DNA from: Cryobacterium sp. HLT2-28
GTDB taxonomy: Bacteria > Actinomycetota > Actinomycetes > Actinomycetales > Microbacteriaceae
Assembly (NCBI RefSeq): GCF_004402495.1
Contig: NZ_SOFH01000020.1
Coordinates: 62,001 to 126,000 of the forward strand
DNA: 64,000 nucleotides
Direction of reading: 5' to 3'
How positions within the stretch are numbered: position 1 is the first letter of the stretch; each line of letters opens with the position of its first letter. The position numbers and the translations under genes were made by a program. Positions 36,086 to 58,205 of this stretch are shown piece after piece. Under the pieces are notes generated by a model. It saw nothing but the letters and a program-made list of their open reading frames with translations. It searched no databases and was not told the DNA's origin.

Positions 36086-36194
36086 GGGAGGCGGGAGGCA
36101 GGAGCAGGAGCAGGAGCAGGAGCAGGGGCGGGAGGCAGGAGGCGGGAAGCAGGGGCGGGAGGCAGGGGCGGGAGGCAGGGGCGGGAGGCAGAGG
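36086..36194. repeat. G-rich tandem repeat downstream of modC
   Basis: The plus strand has a run of GCAGGA hexamers (about 36108-36126) followed by 13 bp units GCAGGGGCGGGAG repeated three times (about 36149-36187). GGG/GG runs give G-quadruplex potential, and the tract ends exactly at the modC stop codon. No coding role is apparent. Confidence 0.75.
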
Positions 36195-53771: not shown

Positions 53772-54319
53772 TGCAATTCGAGCCGTCCGCGGAAGGTCGC
53801 GTGTCCGCGCACTTCGAATTGGTCGAGGTGGGGCTGCTCCGACTCGCCACCAGCCAGCTGGTGGAACTTTTGGAGGCCGCCGATGCCCACGCGCCAGGCA
53901 CGGCCGCCGACCCGGCCCTGAAACGGCTGCTGCCGGATGCCTACCTGGACGACCCTGAGGCCGCGGCGGAGTTCCGCCGGTTCACCGCCGGCGATCTCCT
54001 CGACCGCAAGGTGCTCAATGCGAAGGTGGTCCTGGCGACCCTGGGCGAGGAGCCGCTCGACCCGATCTCCGACGAACCGGACGAGGCGCTGCTCCACGAC
54101 TTGCCGGACGACGCCCCGCTGACGATCGTGCTTGACCCGCCCGACGTGCAGTCCTGGCTGCGCACCCTCACCGACCTGCGGTTGACGCTGGCCGAGCGTC
54201 TCGACATCGGGCCGGACGGCCGGCCGCAGCGAGAGGACGAGGACGCCCCGTTCCTGCGGGACGTCTACGAATGGTTCGGCATGGTGCAGGAGTCCCTGGT
54301 CTACGCCATCGACGTCTGA
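53768..54319 (+). CDS. DUF2017 protein, ClpS neighbour
   Basis: The 183-residue soluble protein belongs to DUF2017, nearly always found after clpS in actinobacteria. It is helical, with [20 protein letters not shown] and the C-terminal [19 protein letters not shown]. The GTG at 53768 overlaps the clpS stop (GTGA); ATG at 53771 is one codon later. Its role is unknown, presumably in the ClpS pathway. The stop lies in a 16 bp tandem duplication. Confidence 0.85.
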
Positions 54320-54348
54320 GCCGAGCGACGTCTGAGCCGAGCGACGTC
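54311..54348 (+). repeat. 16 bp tandem duplication spanning the DUF2017 stop
   Basis: GACGTCTGAGCCGAGC occurs twice (54311-54326 and 54327-54342) and is followed by a third GACGTC. The first copy holds the last two codons and the stop. Confidence 0.85.
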
Positions 54349-54373: not shown

Positions 54374-55687
54374 CTAACCGACCACGGGAACGGCCAGCAG
54401 CGCCGCACGGGCGCGGCGCGGGCCCTCGCCGTCGGCGAGGGAGGCCCGCAGCCGGTCCAGGCGCAGCCTGGCCGCGCCGTCGAGCGCGAGCAGGGCCTCG
54501 GCCGCCACTCGCAACTCGTCGGCCGTCACAGCGTTCGGGTCGAGGGACAGCCCGAAACCGGCCCTCTCCAGGGCGGCTGCACCGGTGAACTGGTCGGTCG
54601 AGAACGGAAGCACCAGCAGCGGAACCCCGGCGGTCATCGCCTCGGTGACGCTGTTGTTGCCTCCGTGGGTGACGGTGAGTGCCGCGTGGCGGAGCAGGGT
54701 GACCTGGGGCAGGAACCCGCGCACCAGCCAGGAACCGGGGATCGGCCCGAGTTCGGCCGGGTCTGTCGCGCCGGTGGCGATGGCAACCCGCACGTCGAGC
54801 CCGCGCAGCGCCTCCGCCACCCGGGCGAGCACGTCGCCGCGCACCGAGAGGAAGCTGCCGAAGCTCACGTAGACGACCGGCCGGTCGGCGGCGGCCAGCC
54901 ACCGGTCGGCCTCGTCGTCGGCGGCCTCCTCGCGCACCGCGGAGCCGAGGAAGGCGTGCGGGGGCAGCAGGGCGGTTCGCGCCGGGTCGTGCAGTTCGGC
55001 CGGGTAGTTGAGCAGGAGCACATCGCCCGCCTCCATGAAGGCGTCGCGGCTGGGCATCGCCGCCGGGTCCAGGCTGAACAGGGCCGCGTTCCACTGGGCC
55101 GTGAACGCGGCACTCACCTCGTCGCAGGCCAGGTGCAGGGCCTCCAGCGCGGCCGGGCCGGGCCGGAACGCCACCGGCCATTCCGGCGGGTAGCCGTAGA
55201 CCTCGTCGCCGACCGGCAGCGCGGACGGGTGCCCGAGCACGACGTCGGCGTGACGGATGCCCGCACTCTGCAGCGCGAGCCTCGCACTGAACGCGAGGTG
55301 GTCGACGATCACCTGGTCGGGCTGCACCTCGGCGACGATCCGCTGCACCTCCCGGGCAACCTCGACCGGGTTCCAGAGCAGGTCGTTGCTGCGCGCCTCG
55401 GCCTGGAACAGGAGCGTCTCCACCATGCCGCGGCGGGTCGCGGCGAAGAACCCGCGGAGGGCGTCGTCTTCGCCGCTCGGCTGCTGCTCGGCCCGGATCG
55501 TGCCCGGGTTGGAGCCCCGGCCCAGTTGCAGGTTGACCCGTTCGAAACCGAACGCCCGCACGATGTCGGCCGTGGCCGGTCCGCTGGCCACGACGACGCG
55601 TTCACCGGCCTGCTGCCAGGCGGTGCCGAGAGTGGCCAGGGGGAAGAGGTGGGAGGCGTAGTCGGGGCTGATGATCAGCAGGGTCAT
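54374..55687 (-). CDS. Family 1 glycosyltransferase (UGT/MGT type)
   Basis: The 437-residue GT-B enzyme has LLIISPDYASHLFPLATLGT at the N terminus, VVYVSFGSFLSVRGDVLARV in the middle and the C-terminal sugar-nucleotide motif VTHGGNNSVTEAMTAGVPLL with VLPFSTDQFTGA. This is the MGT/UGT pattern, usually acting on small hydrophobic acceptors such as natural products, carotenoids or xenobiotics. It follows three overlapping 5-residue mini-ORFs after the HEAT-GT4 gene. Confidence 0.88.
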   Translation of the reverse strand: MTLLIISPDYASHLFPLATLGTAWQQAGERVVVASGPATADIVRAFGFERVNLQLGRGSNPGTIRAEQQPSGEDDALRGFFAATRRGMVETLLFQAEARSNDLLWNPVEVAREVQRIVAEVQPDQVIVDHLAFSARLALQSAGIRHADVVLGHPSALPVGDEVYGYPPEWPVAFRPGPAALEALHLACDEVSAAFTAQWNAALFSLDPAAMPSRDAFMEAGDVLLLNYPAELHDPARTALLPPHAFLGSAVREEAADDEADRWLAAADRPVVYVSFGSFLSVRGDVLARVAEALRGLDVRVAIATGATDPAELGPIPGSWLVRGFLPQVTLLRHAALTVTHGGNNSVTEAMTAGVPLLVLPFSTDQFTGAAALERAGFGLSLDPNAVTADELRVAAEALLALDGAARLRLDRLRASLADGEGPRRARAALLAVPVVG

Positions 55688-55735
55688 GTCAGGTTCCTCA
55701 TCAGGTCTGGTTCCTCATCACGTGTGGTTCCTCAT
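55684..55735 (-). repeat. 17 bp tandem triplication forming three coupled 5-residue mini-ORFs
   Basis: Between the HEAT-GT4 stop and the GT1 start, TGATGAGGAACCACACG, TGATGAGGAACCAGACC and TGATGAGGAACCTGACA follow each other. They read as mini-ORFs 55735-55718 (MRNHT), 55718-55701 (MRNQT) and 55701-55684 (MRNLT). Each starts inside the previous stop (TGATG), and the last stop overlaps the GT1 start (ATGA). Each copy also carries a ribosome-binding-like GAGGAA. Confidence 0.9.
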
Positions 55736-57972
55736 CAGGAGAGGCTCATCGCCCAGGCGTTCGGCCCGTCGGTGACGGCGACCTCCCGGTAGACGGCGGC
55801 CAGGGTGGACGCCATGGCCTGGATCGTGAAACCTCGTGCCACCATCTCGCGGGCACGGTCGGCGAACTCCGGTCCGGACGGGCCGGCGGCGACCGTGAGG
55901 GCAGCGGCGATCCCGCCGGCCAGCGCGGTCGGGTTGCCGGTGTCCACGAGGAAGCCTGTCACTCCCTCCTCCACGTAGGTGGCCGGCCCCCCCGAGTGCG
56001 GCGCGACCACGGGGAGGCCGGTGGCCAGTGCTTCGAGCAGGGCGATCCCGAACTCCTCCTTCACGCTGGCGCAGACATAGACGCCGTTCGGGCCGGCCAG
56101 GCCGGGCCGGCCGGTGCGCGCGGCCGCGAGCCAGCGGGCCACGGTGTCGTTATTGCGGTGCCCGGCGAGCAGCAGTCCACGTTCGATGGCCCCGTCGAGC
56201 GGAACGGCCGCGGCCATCCGGTCCAGTTGTGCGCGCTCGTCGGCCGACGGCGTGCGAAGGTCCCCGCCGACGATGAGCAGGTTGCAGGCCGCGGACAGTG
56301 CCGGGTCCGCCGACCAGGCCTCGACGAGCGCGGCCATGCCCTTGACCCGGTGCAGCCGGCCCACCGTGACGGCGAGCGGCAGCCCGCGTCGCTCGGGCGG
56401 GAGGGCCGCCAGCAGGTCGTCGAGCTCGACGAACGCCACCGCGCCGGCCGCGTTCAGCCGATCCGGGTCAACGGCGGCGGACCCGTCGAGGGACGCCGTC
56501 GCGTCCGCGAGGGAACGCTCGATCACGGCCAGGTCGATTCCCTCCGCGATCACCGAGTGGCGTTCCGGGTGCTGCCGGATGTCGATTCCGACGAGCTCGC
56601 GCATGTCGCGCCGCAGGTCGGGCCGGGGGAAGAGCACGGTGTGCGCGGCATCCGCTGCCAGCCGCTGCACCAGCCGCACCCGGAACCAGAAGTGCTCGGC
56701 CTCGTCCACGGTGCCGAAGTTCGCGCGGGTCAGGGTGCCGGTCGCATCCAGCGAGTGGATGACGCTGTGCGGGTCGGGTGCCACCGTGAACACGATGGGG
56801 ATGTCCAGTTCGCGGGCGACCGTGGAAGCGGCGAGAGTGCCGACATCGGCCATCCTCAGGTGGATCGCATCGACCGTTCCCGCTGCGCGGAGGATGCGCC
56901 GGATGCCGCGCTGGGTGGCGATCCGGCGCGGCCAGGCATCGACCGAGGCGACCGGTTCGCCAAGGAACGGGACGGTCGCGAAGGCGTGCCCGGCCAGGGT
57001 CGAGCTGACCTCGGAGAGGCAGTCCAGGGCGTCGGCGAAACCGCCCCGGGAGAGTGTGAGCACCCGTTCGACCCGCTGCTCCCTCGGAGCATCCTCGCCG
57101 CCGGACAGGAAGGCGTGCTCCCCCGGCGTCGGGCCGGCGACGAGGGCGTCGCCGAGGCGCACGAGCAGGGTCGCGATGCCGCCGTTGTCGCCGGCGCCGA
57201 CCTGGCTGAGGTCACGGTCGATGTCGGCGTGCAGGAAAAGCTGGGCGATGGTGGCCCCCTGGCTCCACGGCGCGCGCGGATAGTTCGGCACGGTCAGGTC
57301 GACCAGGGCGAGCCTGGCCACCTCGGCCAGCACGTCGTCGCCCCGGGCAAGCTCGGTGACGATCGCGGTGTTGGCGTCGTTCGGGCCGAGGTCGCCGAGG
57401 GCGGCGATCGCGGCGACACGCACCTCGGTCGGCTCGGCCGGGTCGACGGCGACGCGGCGCAGCAGGCGCTCCGGGATGCGGCCGGTGACGAGGCCGATCG
57501 TCTCGACCAGACGGGACCGTGCCCCGGGTTCGACGACGCCGACCAGGGCACCCTCGAGGGCGAGCCCGACGTGCTCCGGCACCGACGACGCCCACTGTTC
57601 CAGGGTGCGCTGGGCGATCATCCCGGGGAATCCGCCGGCGACGACCATGGCCACGAGCCCGGAGATGGCGTCGAGGCGGGGCAGGCGGGCACCGAAGGCC
57701 CAGGCCGTGTGCTCGCGGATGAACAGGGTGTCATGGCCCAGCAGGGTGACCAGCACATCGTCCGCCGACTCGTCGAAGACCTGGGCGAGCGAGTGCATCG
57801 CCGCGATCGCGGTGAGCTGGTCGCCCGGGTCGACCGCGGCCTGGGCGAGCAGGCGAACGGCCCGCACGCCGCCGTCCCTGCTCGCGGCGACGGTCAGGTC
57901 GTCGGCGGCCCGGATGCCGTCCAGGATCGAACGCGTCTGGCGCATGGTGTCCAGGGTCGTATGGGTTCCCAC
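55735..57972 (-). CDS. HEAT-repeat and GT4 glycosyltransferase fusion
   Basis: The 745-residue protein has an N-terminal alpha-helical repeat domain (about 1-230) with HEAT-like units (LTAIAAMHSLAQVFDESADD, EVRVAAIAALGDLGPNDANT). The rest is a GT-B glycosyltransferase: IHLRMADVGTLAASTVAREL, PLAVTVGRLHRVKGMAALVE and the family 4 motif VCASVKEEFGIALLEALATG with LPVVAPHSGGP. GTG at 57972 has GGAGA seven bases upstream. The substrate is unknown; the HEAT part may hold a partner or the membrane. It is upstream of a GT1 gene in the same operon. Confidence 0.85.
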   Translation of the reverse strand: MGTHTTLDTMRQTRSILDGIRAADDLTVAASRDGGVRAVRLLAQAAVDPGDQLTAIAAMHSLAQVFDESADDVLVTLLGHDTLFIREHTAWAFGARLPRLDAISGLVAMVVAGGFPGMIAQRTLEQWASSVPEHVGLALEGALVGVVEPGARSRLVETIGLVTGRIPERLLRRVAVDPAEPTEVRVAAIAALGDLGPNDANTAIVTELARGDDVLAEVARLALVDLTVPNYPRAPWSQGATIAQLFLHADIDRDLSQVGAGDNGGIATLLVRLGDALVAGPTPGEHAFLSGGEDAPREQRVERVLTLSRGGFADALDCLSEVSSTLAGHAFATVPFLGEPVASVDAWPRRIATQRGIRRILRAAGTVDAIHLRMADVGTLAASTVARELDIPIVFTVAPDPHSVIHSLDATGTLTRANFGTVDEAEHFWFRVRLVQRLAADAAHTVLFPRPDLRRDMRELVGIDIRQHPERHSVIAEGIDLAVIERSLADATASLDGSAAVDPDRLNAAGAVAFVELDDLLAALPPERRGLPLAVTVGRLHRVKGMAALVEAWSADPALSAACNLLIVGGDLRTPSADERAQLDRMAAAVPLDGAIERGLLLAGHRNNDTVARWLAAARTGRPGLAGPNGVYVCASVKEEFGIALLEALATGLPVVAPHSGGPATYVEEGVTGFLVDTGNPTALAGGIAAALTVAAGPSGPEFADRAREMVARGFTIQAMASTLAAVYREVAVTDGPNAWAMSLS

Positions 57973-58205
57973 GGGGTGTTCTCCCTGTCGTCGGGGCGGT
58001 CTGTCGTCGGGGCGGGCTGGCGTCGGATGCGGTCTGGTGCTGCCGATGATACTTCGGAACGGGAAACTCCTCGGATTGCCGGTGGGGAATCCGCTCCCGG
58101 TCGATTCAACGCTATTGGCCTGACCAGCAATCAGATATCGGCTGGGAATCAGCCGAGACTCCGCCGACGGGTTTACTTGGCGGTCACAGGGGGCAGGATG
58201 GATGC

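Follow-up and report, generated by a model that had tools for sequence, protein, structure and literature searches.

A frame-compatible ladder of three mini-ORFs between two glycosyltransferase genes of Cryobacterium and a candidate ribosome relay at gene junctions of Microbacteriaceae

Introduction

A review by Brown and Wade (PMC12548453) describes as still debated whether a ribosome remains on its message to restart after termination, and over what distance it can move before it does. For Escherichia coli, one study reports that 38 additional nucleotides (nt) lowered reinitiation by 80-90% in two gene pairs and abolished it in a third, that ~20 nt all but eliminated coupling across six pairs, and that the final 15 nt of the upstream gene were enough in two pairs (PMC10666635). 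In Haloferax volcanii, reinitiation is reported to have survived mutation of the Shine-Dalgarno (SD) sequence in all seven pairs, with a loss of 20-80% in six and an increase in the remaining one (PMC6728339). Here we analyse a 64,000-nt stretch of the Cryobacterium sp. HLT2-28 genome (hereafter the window; bases 62001-126000 of contig NZ_SOFH01000020.1, C30, in a 3.7-Mb draft assembly of 32 contigs), in which a gene for a HEAT-repeat/GT4 glycosyltransferase (HEAT-GT4) and a gene for a GT1 glycosyltransferase are separated by 47 nt that hold a ladder of three five-codon mini-open reading frames (mini-ORFs). Given the published decay of coupling with distance, a gap of this length would decouple GT1 unless the mini-ORFs carry the ribosome across or GT1 starts afresh.

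Repeats that couple neighbouring genes are already on record. Mycobacterial interspersed repetitive units (MIRUs) are short repeats whose ORF is coupled at a -4 spacing to the gene that follows; they are longer than the units of the present ladder, found at many places in the genome and thought to be mobile (PMC12548453). At senX3-regX3, MIRUs of 77 and 53 bp occur three in a row (PMC4213456), and by our own arithmetic both lengths leave a remainder of two when divided by three (2 mod 3). In bicistronic designs, a short translated ORF holds the SD sequence of the next ORF near its own stop (PMC13255528); listed designs include ones for Corynebacterium glutamicum.

For the window junction, we lean toward the reading that the array is the product of 17-bp duplication, tolerated as units of 2 mod 3 chain mini-ORFs into a candidate ribosome relay to GT1.

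Results

Three mini-ORFs form a ladder between the two genes

The features of the junction are as follows.

55735..57972, minus strand: HEAT-repeat/GT4 glycosyltransferase gene, 745 amino acids (aa), GTG start at 57972
55735-55737, minus strand: HEAT-GT4 stop codon TGA, in a TGATG overlap with mini-ORF 1
55684..55739, minus strand: 17-bp tandem array (Tandem Repeats Finder: period 17, 3.3 copies, 87% matches, score 84)
55718..55735, minus strand: mini-ORF 1, ATGAGGAACCACACGTGA (MRNHT), by direct reading
55701..55718, minus strand: mini-ORF 2, ATGAGGAACCAGACCTGA (MRNQT), by direct reading
55684..55701, minus strand: mini-ORF 3, ATGAGGAACCTGACATGA (MRNLT), in an ATGA overlap with the GT1 start
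55694..55699, minus strand: GAGGAA, SD-like sequence inside mini-ORF 3, 6 nt ahead of the GT1 ATG; anti-SD duplex -5.6 kcal/mol
54374..55687, minus strand: GT1 (UDPGT/MGT-like) glycosyltransferase gene, 437 aa, ATG at 55685-55687

The HEAT-GT4 start was assigned from its likeness to the MATHTAL... start in relatives. Its protein matches Glycos_transf_1 (E 4.7e-20), with a HEAT_2 match under the cut-off of that family, and the GT1 protein matches UDPGT (E 1.7e-18) and NCBIfam MGT (E 9.8e-37), the latter under the MGT cut-off.

A first-pass annotation of this DNA had described three 17-bp units between the HEAT-GT4 stop and the GT1 start, TGATG stop/start overlaps ending in an ATGA, and three different peptides. 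Reading of the minus strand together with Tandem Repeats Finder bears out the units (TGATGAGGAACCACACG, TGATGAGGAACCAGACC and TGATGAGGAACCTGACA, followed by TGACC), and direct reading bears out both the overlaps, i.e. three TGATG links of 1 nt each and a final ATGA link of 4 nt, and the peptides MRNHT, MRNQT and MRNLT. The annotation had also credited each unit with its own GAGGAA; the motif is present in each, although it sits inside the mini-ORF and is placed to serve the next start, lying 9 nt ahead of the ATGs of mini-ORFs 2 and 3, with none ahead of the start of mini-ORF 1. Mini-ORF 2 might alternatively start at a GTG of the same frame that lies 3 nt ahead of its ATG and overlaps the mini-ORF 1 stop. 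With a gap of +47 nt, HEAT-GT4 and GT1 themselves lack the 1- or 4-nt overlap that we used as the criterion for a coupled pair, and every consecutive ORF pair within the ladder has it.

Fourteen of the 17 columns are identical across the three successive copies, compared with 7-9 of 17 for the best 17-bp three-copy match in 60 dinucleotide-preserving shuffles of the whole window, which rules out pure chance as the origin of the array. The 3.7-Mb assembly holds four exact copies of the unit TGATGAGGAAC, three of them within the array; with a single exact copy outside it, a genome-wide dispersed repeat family is rejected. RNA structure as a coupling switch was rejected as well, since no structure beyond that of shuffled sequences was found at the window junction (z -0.66) or at those of three relatives (-1.08, 0.07 and -0.17).

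The units were born by local tandem duplication

HEAT-GT4/GT1 junctions were read in the window and at 79 named loci, with 80 of 85 matching stretches kept. Sixty-eight of these 80 junctions have a gap of -4 (ATGA or GTGA), two a gap of -1, three a gap of -26 and seven a positive gap: 47 nt in the window, 30 in Cryobacterium sp. MP_M3, 13 in C. algoritolerans, 121 in C. frigoriphilum, 62 in C. melibiosiphilum, 31 in Lacisediminihabitans changchengi and 86 in Naasia. The GT1 start used for Naasia is no start codon, leaving six positive gaps with a genuine GT1 start. The three loci in which a 26-nt overlap replaces the 4-nt one (L067, L072 and L078) belong to a Propionibacteriaceae bin, Pedococcus and Raineyella.

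The comparison of copy number across relatives that the first-pass annotation had proposed was run, and returned 0, 1, 2 and 3 units in four sister lineages. The gaps in C. fucosi, C. algoritolerans, MP_M3 and the window are -4, 13, 30 and 47 nt, that is, -4 + 17n with n = 0, 1, 2 and 3. In a tree of 15 rows, these four form one clade (100/99) and the outgroups carry zero units; the window and MP_M3 are sisters (100/100), and C. algoritolerans and C. fucosi are weakly so (93/92), so that the zero-unit state of C. fucosi may be either ancestral or a loss. A gap series of this form implies that the units arose through local tandem duplication; as judged from the junction sequences, stepwise 17-bp duplication at the HEAT-GT4/GT1 stop/start overlap is shown to be the origin of the array. 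To the eye, the units look like the 3' end of HEAT-GT4 (CGATGAGCCT...), which makes the overlap region of the two genes the probable source of the duplicated piece. The earlier proposal that the array is a slippage product of one ribosome-binding site (RBS) thus stands as to tandem duplication, given the 0-1-2-3 series, and not as to the piece copied, which by eye is the gene-end/overlap region rather than an RBS alone. The differences of 0-3 units are differences between species.

An unbroken ATG/GTG chain leads to GT1 in three of the six junctions with a positive gap and a genuine GT1 start, namely those of the window, C. algoritolerans and L. changchengi, the last through one 12-codon GTG mini-ORF. 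At the L. changchengi junction (L075, gap 31), a doubled GTTCAGTGAGGTTCAGA-like stretch yields this bridging mini-ORF.

Two further species carry arrays at the same junction: C. melibiosiphilum (L050) has a 14-bp array, TGATACCTGCTTCC, with ~4 copies and no ATG, and C. frigoriphilum (L049) has an array of different sequence. Both are independent expansions.

Units of 2 mod 3 predominate at gene junctions across the family

Ladders of this kind were sought in Microbacteriaceae genomes with the pattern TGATG-N12-TGATG-N12-TGATG for 17 bp and with analogous triple-TGATG patterns for other periods; period-8 arrays (four genomes) and a period-7 array (one genome) were excluded from the period counts. 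The 17-bp pattern occurs in 21 of 398 genomes, with 28 matches listed. Its reversed counterpart gave 15 matches in six genomes, which makes a weak control, as GTAGT holds a stop triplet and differs in frequency. The 16-bp pattern was found in nine of the 398 genomes, four of them through 8-bp arrays, which leaves five. Among 369 genomes, 14-bp ladders occur in 14 (plus one 7-bp array), 13-bp ladders in five and mixed 13/14 ladders in eight; 20-bp ladders occur in seven, 19-bp ladders in five and mixed ones in three. Counted by genome, the excess of 17 over 16 is significant (p 0.002), as is the pooled excess (42 vs 15, p 4.6e-4).

Arrays were then classed by a script that uses open frames and the GC pattern, complemented by inspection by eye. 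Bridging arrays were those with the end of one gene at, or a little ahead of, the array and the start of a second gene on that strand within it or a little beyond. Bridging accounts for 5 of 15 arrays of period 14, 11 of 24 rows of period 17 (these include L148, one array in two registers, and L153, which repeats the G172 junction on a second contig) and 1 of 7 arrays of period 20, and for 0 of 5, 1 of 5 and 0 of 5 arrays of periods 13, 16 and 19. With the script classes as they stand, 17 bridging arrays are 2 mod 3 (14, 17 or 20 bp) and one is 1 mod 3 (binomial p 1.4e-4); merging two hemB-hemL and two moeZ-moeA cases gives 15 vs 1 (p 5.2e-4). Two more 17-bp arrays, L137 and L155, bridge on inspection, having been scored as gene-end arrays owing to the GC-pattern threshold. 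No skew is seen away from gene ends (14 vs 11, or 13 without the double register of L148), and bridging arrays differ from arrays without a gene end (p 0.006).

Examples of TGATG arrays that start at a gene stop with no recognised downstream gene are L224, L227, L216 and L226 (period 14) and L131 (period 17). An 8-bp array in genome G193 (L190), with 36 copies of TGATGCCC, reads as consecutive two-codon ORFs (ATG CCC TGA) and does not clearly bridge a gene pair.

Mini-ORF chains reach the second gene in all bridging ladders of compatible frame

The chain of ORFs was followed from the stop of the first gene through TGATG, ATGA, GTGA or TAATG overlaps, with GTG starts allowed. In all 19 ladder junctions (the script classes plus L137 and L155) it extends to the second gene, across gaps of 30-81 nt and through two to five mini-ORFs; in L134, exceptionally, the first start lies 2 nt past the stop instead of on it. 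The chain fails in the sole bridging 16-bp case (L195). Steps from TGATG to TGATG in the 19 ladders measure 14, 17 or 20 bp, and some 12, 15 or 18 bp (L220, L212, L133 and L139), with none of 1 mod 3; steps chosen by the search pattern obey 2 mod 3 by construction, and what is independent in this result comes from the extra, irregular steps.

The gene pairs joined in this way are listed below, with gene names that represent our reading of Pfam domains.

hemB-hemL (ALAD, Aminotran_3): L140 scanned, L139 matched through protein ends
moeZ-moeA type (ThiF plus rhodanese, MoeA): L145 scanned, L146 matched through protein ends
purD-purC (GARS, SAICAR_synt)
dgt-dnaG type (HD, DnaG domains)
Nramp-DtxR/MntR type
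3HCDH-hydrolase
CN_hydrolase-GT4
LuxR-PALP
DUF1990-radical SAM
HTH-MFS
histidine phosphatase-GNAT
DUF2017, then a second protein (Pfam run on the first protein only)
MoxR-type AAA, then a protein without a match: L138
moxR-DUF58: L221 (G339) with 14-bp units; L134 (G172), in another genus, with 17-bp units

The first gene of L134 is cut at a contig edge, and its assignment to moxR rests on a protein tail that by eye is like that of L221. Neither protein flanking L155 has a Pfam match at E 1e-6. In the two hemB-hemL genomes (L139 and L140; G135 and G197, of one genus), the 17-bp units resemble the hemL start (TGATGGGACTGTGCTTC). The occurrence of TGATG ladders with frame-compatible units in other gene pairs suggests that a stepwise hand-on of ribosomes may be possible.

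Single mini-ORF bridges are in excess, and ladders have weak Shine-Dalgarno sequences

A less selected sample comprised 120 stretches of 20 kb from 44 Microbacteriaceae genomes; many of these genomes had been chosen via contigs known from the array searches, and the stretches were placed blindly. A self-trained gene caller returned 1964 genes and 1251 same-strand junctions. We considered junctions in which the first stop overlaps a start codon other than that of the second gene, the control being the same frame without a start codon. For gaps of 0-150 nt, 37 of 79 such mini-ORFs terminate on a start of the second gene, compared with 101 of 375 controls (odds ratio 2.4, p 7e-4); the excess is also present for gaps of 0-80 nt (30/57 vs 77/239, p 0.0055) and of -10 to 60 nt (24/45 vs 72/196, p 0.044). 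Single mini-ORF bridges, with gene starts as predicted, are thus commoner than frame alone gives.

The mean anti-SD energy (kcal/mol) ahead of the second gene is -3.67 in ladders (n 19), -5.84 in direct overlaps (n 366), -4.81 in plain gaps of 25-90 nt (n 228) and -3.03 at random positions (n 2400). The SD sequences of ladders are weaker than those of direct overlaps (p 0.003) and not significantly different from random positions (p 0.07). The window junction stands at the better end of this range: its GAGGAA is real, yet such a motif is not a common feature of ladders.

Arrays in viral contigs and elsewhere in the window

Viral contigs were represented by 80 of 100 period-17 stretches and 80 of at least 120 period-16 stretches, in which 81 and 67 arrays, respectively, were examined. 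True tandem repeats are commoner among the period-17 arrays (41 of 81) than among the period-16 ones (15 of 67 retained).

Within the window, a 16-bp tandem array of ~3 copies (54299-54348) lies between the DUF2017 gene, whose stop it holds, and the convergent GT1 stop, and another 16-bp array of ~3 copies (57985-58036) lies directly upstream of the HEAT-GT4 start (GTG 57972). The HEAT-GT4/GT1 pair is thus bordered by three unrelated short arrays. A 13-bp array of ~8 copies is found at 36090-36191.

Discussion

We favour a relay as the reason why arrays survive at gene junctions in Microbacteriaceae, and, for the window junction, a relay combined with initiation at GT1's own SD. A ribosome that ends HEAT-GT4 would restart at the overlapping ATG, read five codons, end and restart, and after three such steps would arrive at the GT1 ATG across +47 nt, a distance that a lone termination-reinitiation event would cross poorly. 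The GAGGA ahead of GT1 probably adds some independent initiation. On this account the duplication would be tolerated because 17 is 2 mod 3, so that each copy becomes a mini-ORF running from the previous stop to the next start. A unit of 2 mod 3 would close a mini-ORF and one of 0 mod 3 would merely lengthen the second protein; if the first duplication were instead 1 mod 3, the restarted ribosome would pass the GT1 start out of frame. Because 1 mod 3 arrays would also relay when their steps are even in number, the filter is expected to act on the first duplication. The relay and tandem-duplication readings of the array are compatible. From sequence we infer that ribosomes may use the chain, that selection may lie behind the frame skew and that the ratio of the two enzymes may be affected.

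Several observations weigh against a relay. In MP_M3, the second unit has no ATG (TGAGG) and the chain stops 13 nt short of GT1; the same unit contains GAGGAGGA, whose anti-SD energy is -11.5 kcal/mol vs -5.6 in the window. The junctions of C. melibiosiphilum (62 nt) and C. frigoriphilum (121 nt) have no ATG/GTG chain at all. With three Cryobacterium species lacking an intact chain, the HEAT-GT4/GT1 junction can evidently live without a relay; the first-pass proposal of a termination-reinitiation relay is thus supported by the family-wide frame skew and by the excess of mini-ORF bridges, and unsupported as a strict need. By genome, the contrast of 14 with 13 bp falls short (p 0.06) and that of 20 with 19 bp is absent (p 0.77; seven and five of 369 genomes). 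Gene-end arrays without a recognised next gene are themselves skewed, at 15 vs 3 in the script classes and at 12 vs 3 (p 0.035) after removal of L137, L155 and L153, and bridging arrays differ from all non-bridging ones at p 0.047. The 2 mod 3 skew is therefore a property of gene ends generally, strongest at bridges, and the relay leaves its presence at gene ends without a next gene unexplained. Mini-ORF bridges are not significantly in excess when the gap is 0-40 nt (16/30 vs 47/133, p 0.096). The SD sequences of ladders are not significantly different from those of plain gaps (p 0.11), and that of the window (-5.6) is no weaker than the gapped-gene mean (-4.81). Finally, no bridging ladder was found among the 81 period-17 and 67 period-16 arrays of viral contigs, where a bridge required the first TGA to terminate an ORF of at least 60 codons and the last ATG to open another; this too is unexplained.

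The strongest competitor is neutral slippage, in which GT1 would be initiated afresh at its own SD sequence and the mini-ORFs would be a by-product of a unit that happens to contain TGATG. The incomplete chains in three other Cryobacterium species with positive gaps, the fair SD of the window and the much better one of MP_M3 speak for it, as do the short tandem arrays that are common in the window, two of which border this very gene pair. It fails to predict, however, the 17-vs-1 skew to 2 mod 3 at bridges, the weak SD sequences after other ladders relative to direct overlaps and the excess of single mini-ORF bridges, and we regard it as possible although rather unlikely.

If each restart of a relay is incomplete, each unit is predicted to lower GT1 per HEAT-GT4 by a constant factor. 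Unit number, selected or variable within species, could then act as a dial that sets the GT1:HEAT-GT4 ratio, each unit being a constant attenuating step. Four sister species with 0-3 units and the geometric attenuation expected of a serial relay with incomplete restarts would fit such a dial. Direct overlap nevertheless dominates among near relatives, with 31 junctions at -4 and two at -1 in 39 rows (the window and L032-L069, a few of them outside Cryobacterium), which makes a copy-number dial improbable.

It is very improbable that the peptides or their codons act, as a leader-peptide attenuator or as regulatory peptides. Three short ORFs are present, two of them preceded by an SD-like sequence; the C. 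algoritolerans unit encodes MRSLR and the MP_M3 unit MRDLT, as against MRNHT, MRNQT and MRNLT in the window, and such differences between units and species speak against a peptide function. The ladder holds no single-codon run, and its RNA structure does not exceed chance (z -0.66), so that it does not qualify as an attenuator. Assembly error, which the first-pass annotation had considered and which a 32-contig draft might invite, can practically be dismissed: related assemblies carry 2, 1 and 0 units with different letters, and a 51-bp array is shorter than usual reads.

As a tentative generalization from the relay, one that may well prove too broad, serial termination-reinitiation could be both exploited and policed in Microbacteriaceae: at coupled junctions, almost only duplications of 2 (or 0) mod 3 would survive, and ladders (of the hemL, dnaG, purC and moeA types) would span 30-81 nt without a strong RBS, each rung being a constant attenuator. 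Ladders with two to five mini-ORFs, together with the one-unit relatives, offer a natural series in which to follow successive restarts and what each of them yields. On a genome scale, the frame skew hints that restarting at TGATG may be efficient enough for selection to see, and ladder junctions pass for ordinary spacers of 30-80 nt unless the mini-ORFs are read.

Comparison with known systems

In a literature search of mostly open-access papers, no title or abstract dealt with tandem mini-ORF ladders or stated that coupled junctions follow a 2 mod 3 rule. The kind is already known, as MIRU-like coupling; neither the frame rule nor ladders that are short, born locally and made of several rungs turned up in that search. 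Like MIRUs, the window unit holds an ORF that overlaps its neighbours (TGATG, ATGA), but it measures 17 bp rather than 53-77 bp, was made from a local gene end and is not dispersed. Variable-number tandem repeats and phase variation share with it a short tandem unit whose copy number varies between lineages; the variation of the window array is seen between species only, and arrays at gene junctions favour unit lengths of 2 mod 3. As in synthetic bicistronic designs and boosting short ORFs, each mini-ORF of the window contains GAGGAA, with predicted use as an SD sequence, and a stop/start overlap, whereas the window ladder is natural and has three such ORFs in series, and other natural ladders mostly lack a strong SD. 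Compared with known termination-reinitiation pairs, each link of the ladder is a standard -1 or -4 overlap, and 70 of the 80 HEAT-GT4/GT1 junctions overlap directly in this way; the two genes of the window junction instead lie 47 nt apart and are joined via three mini-ORFs.

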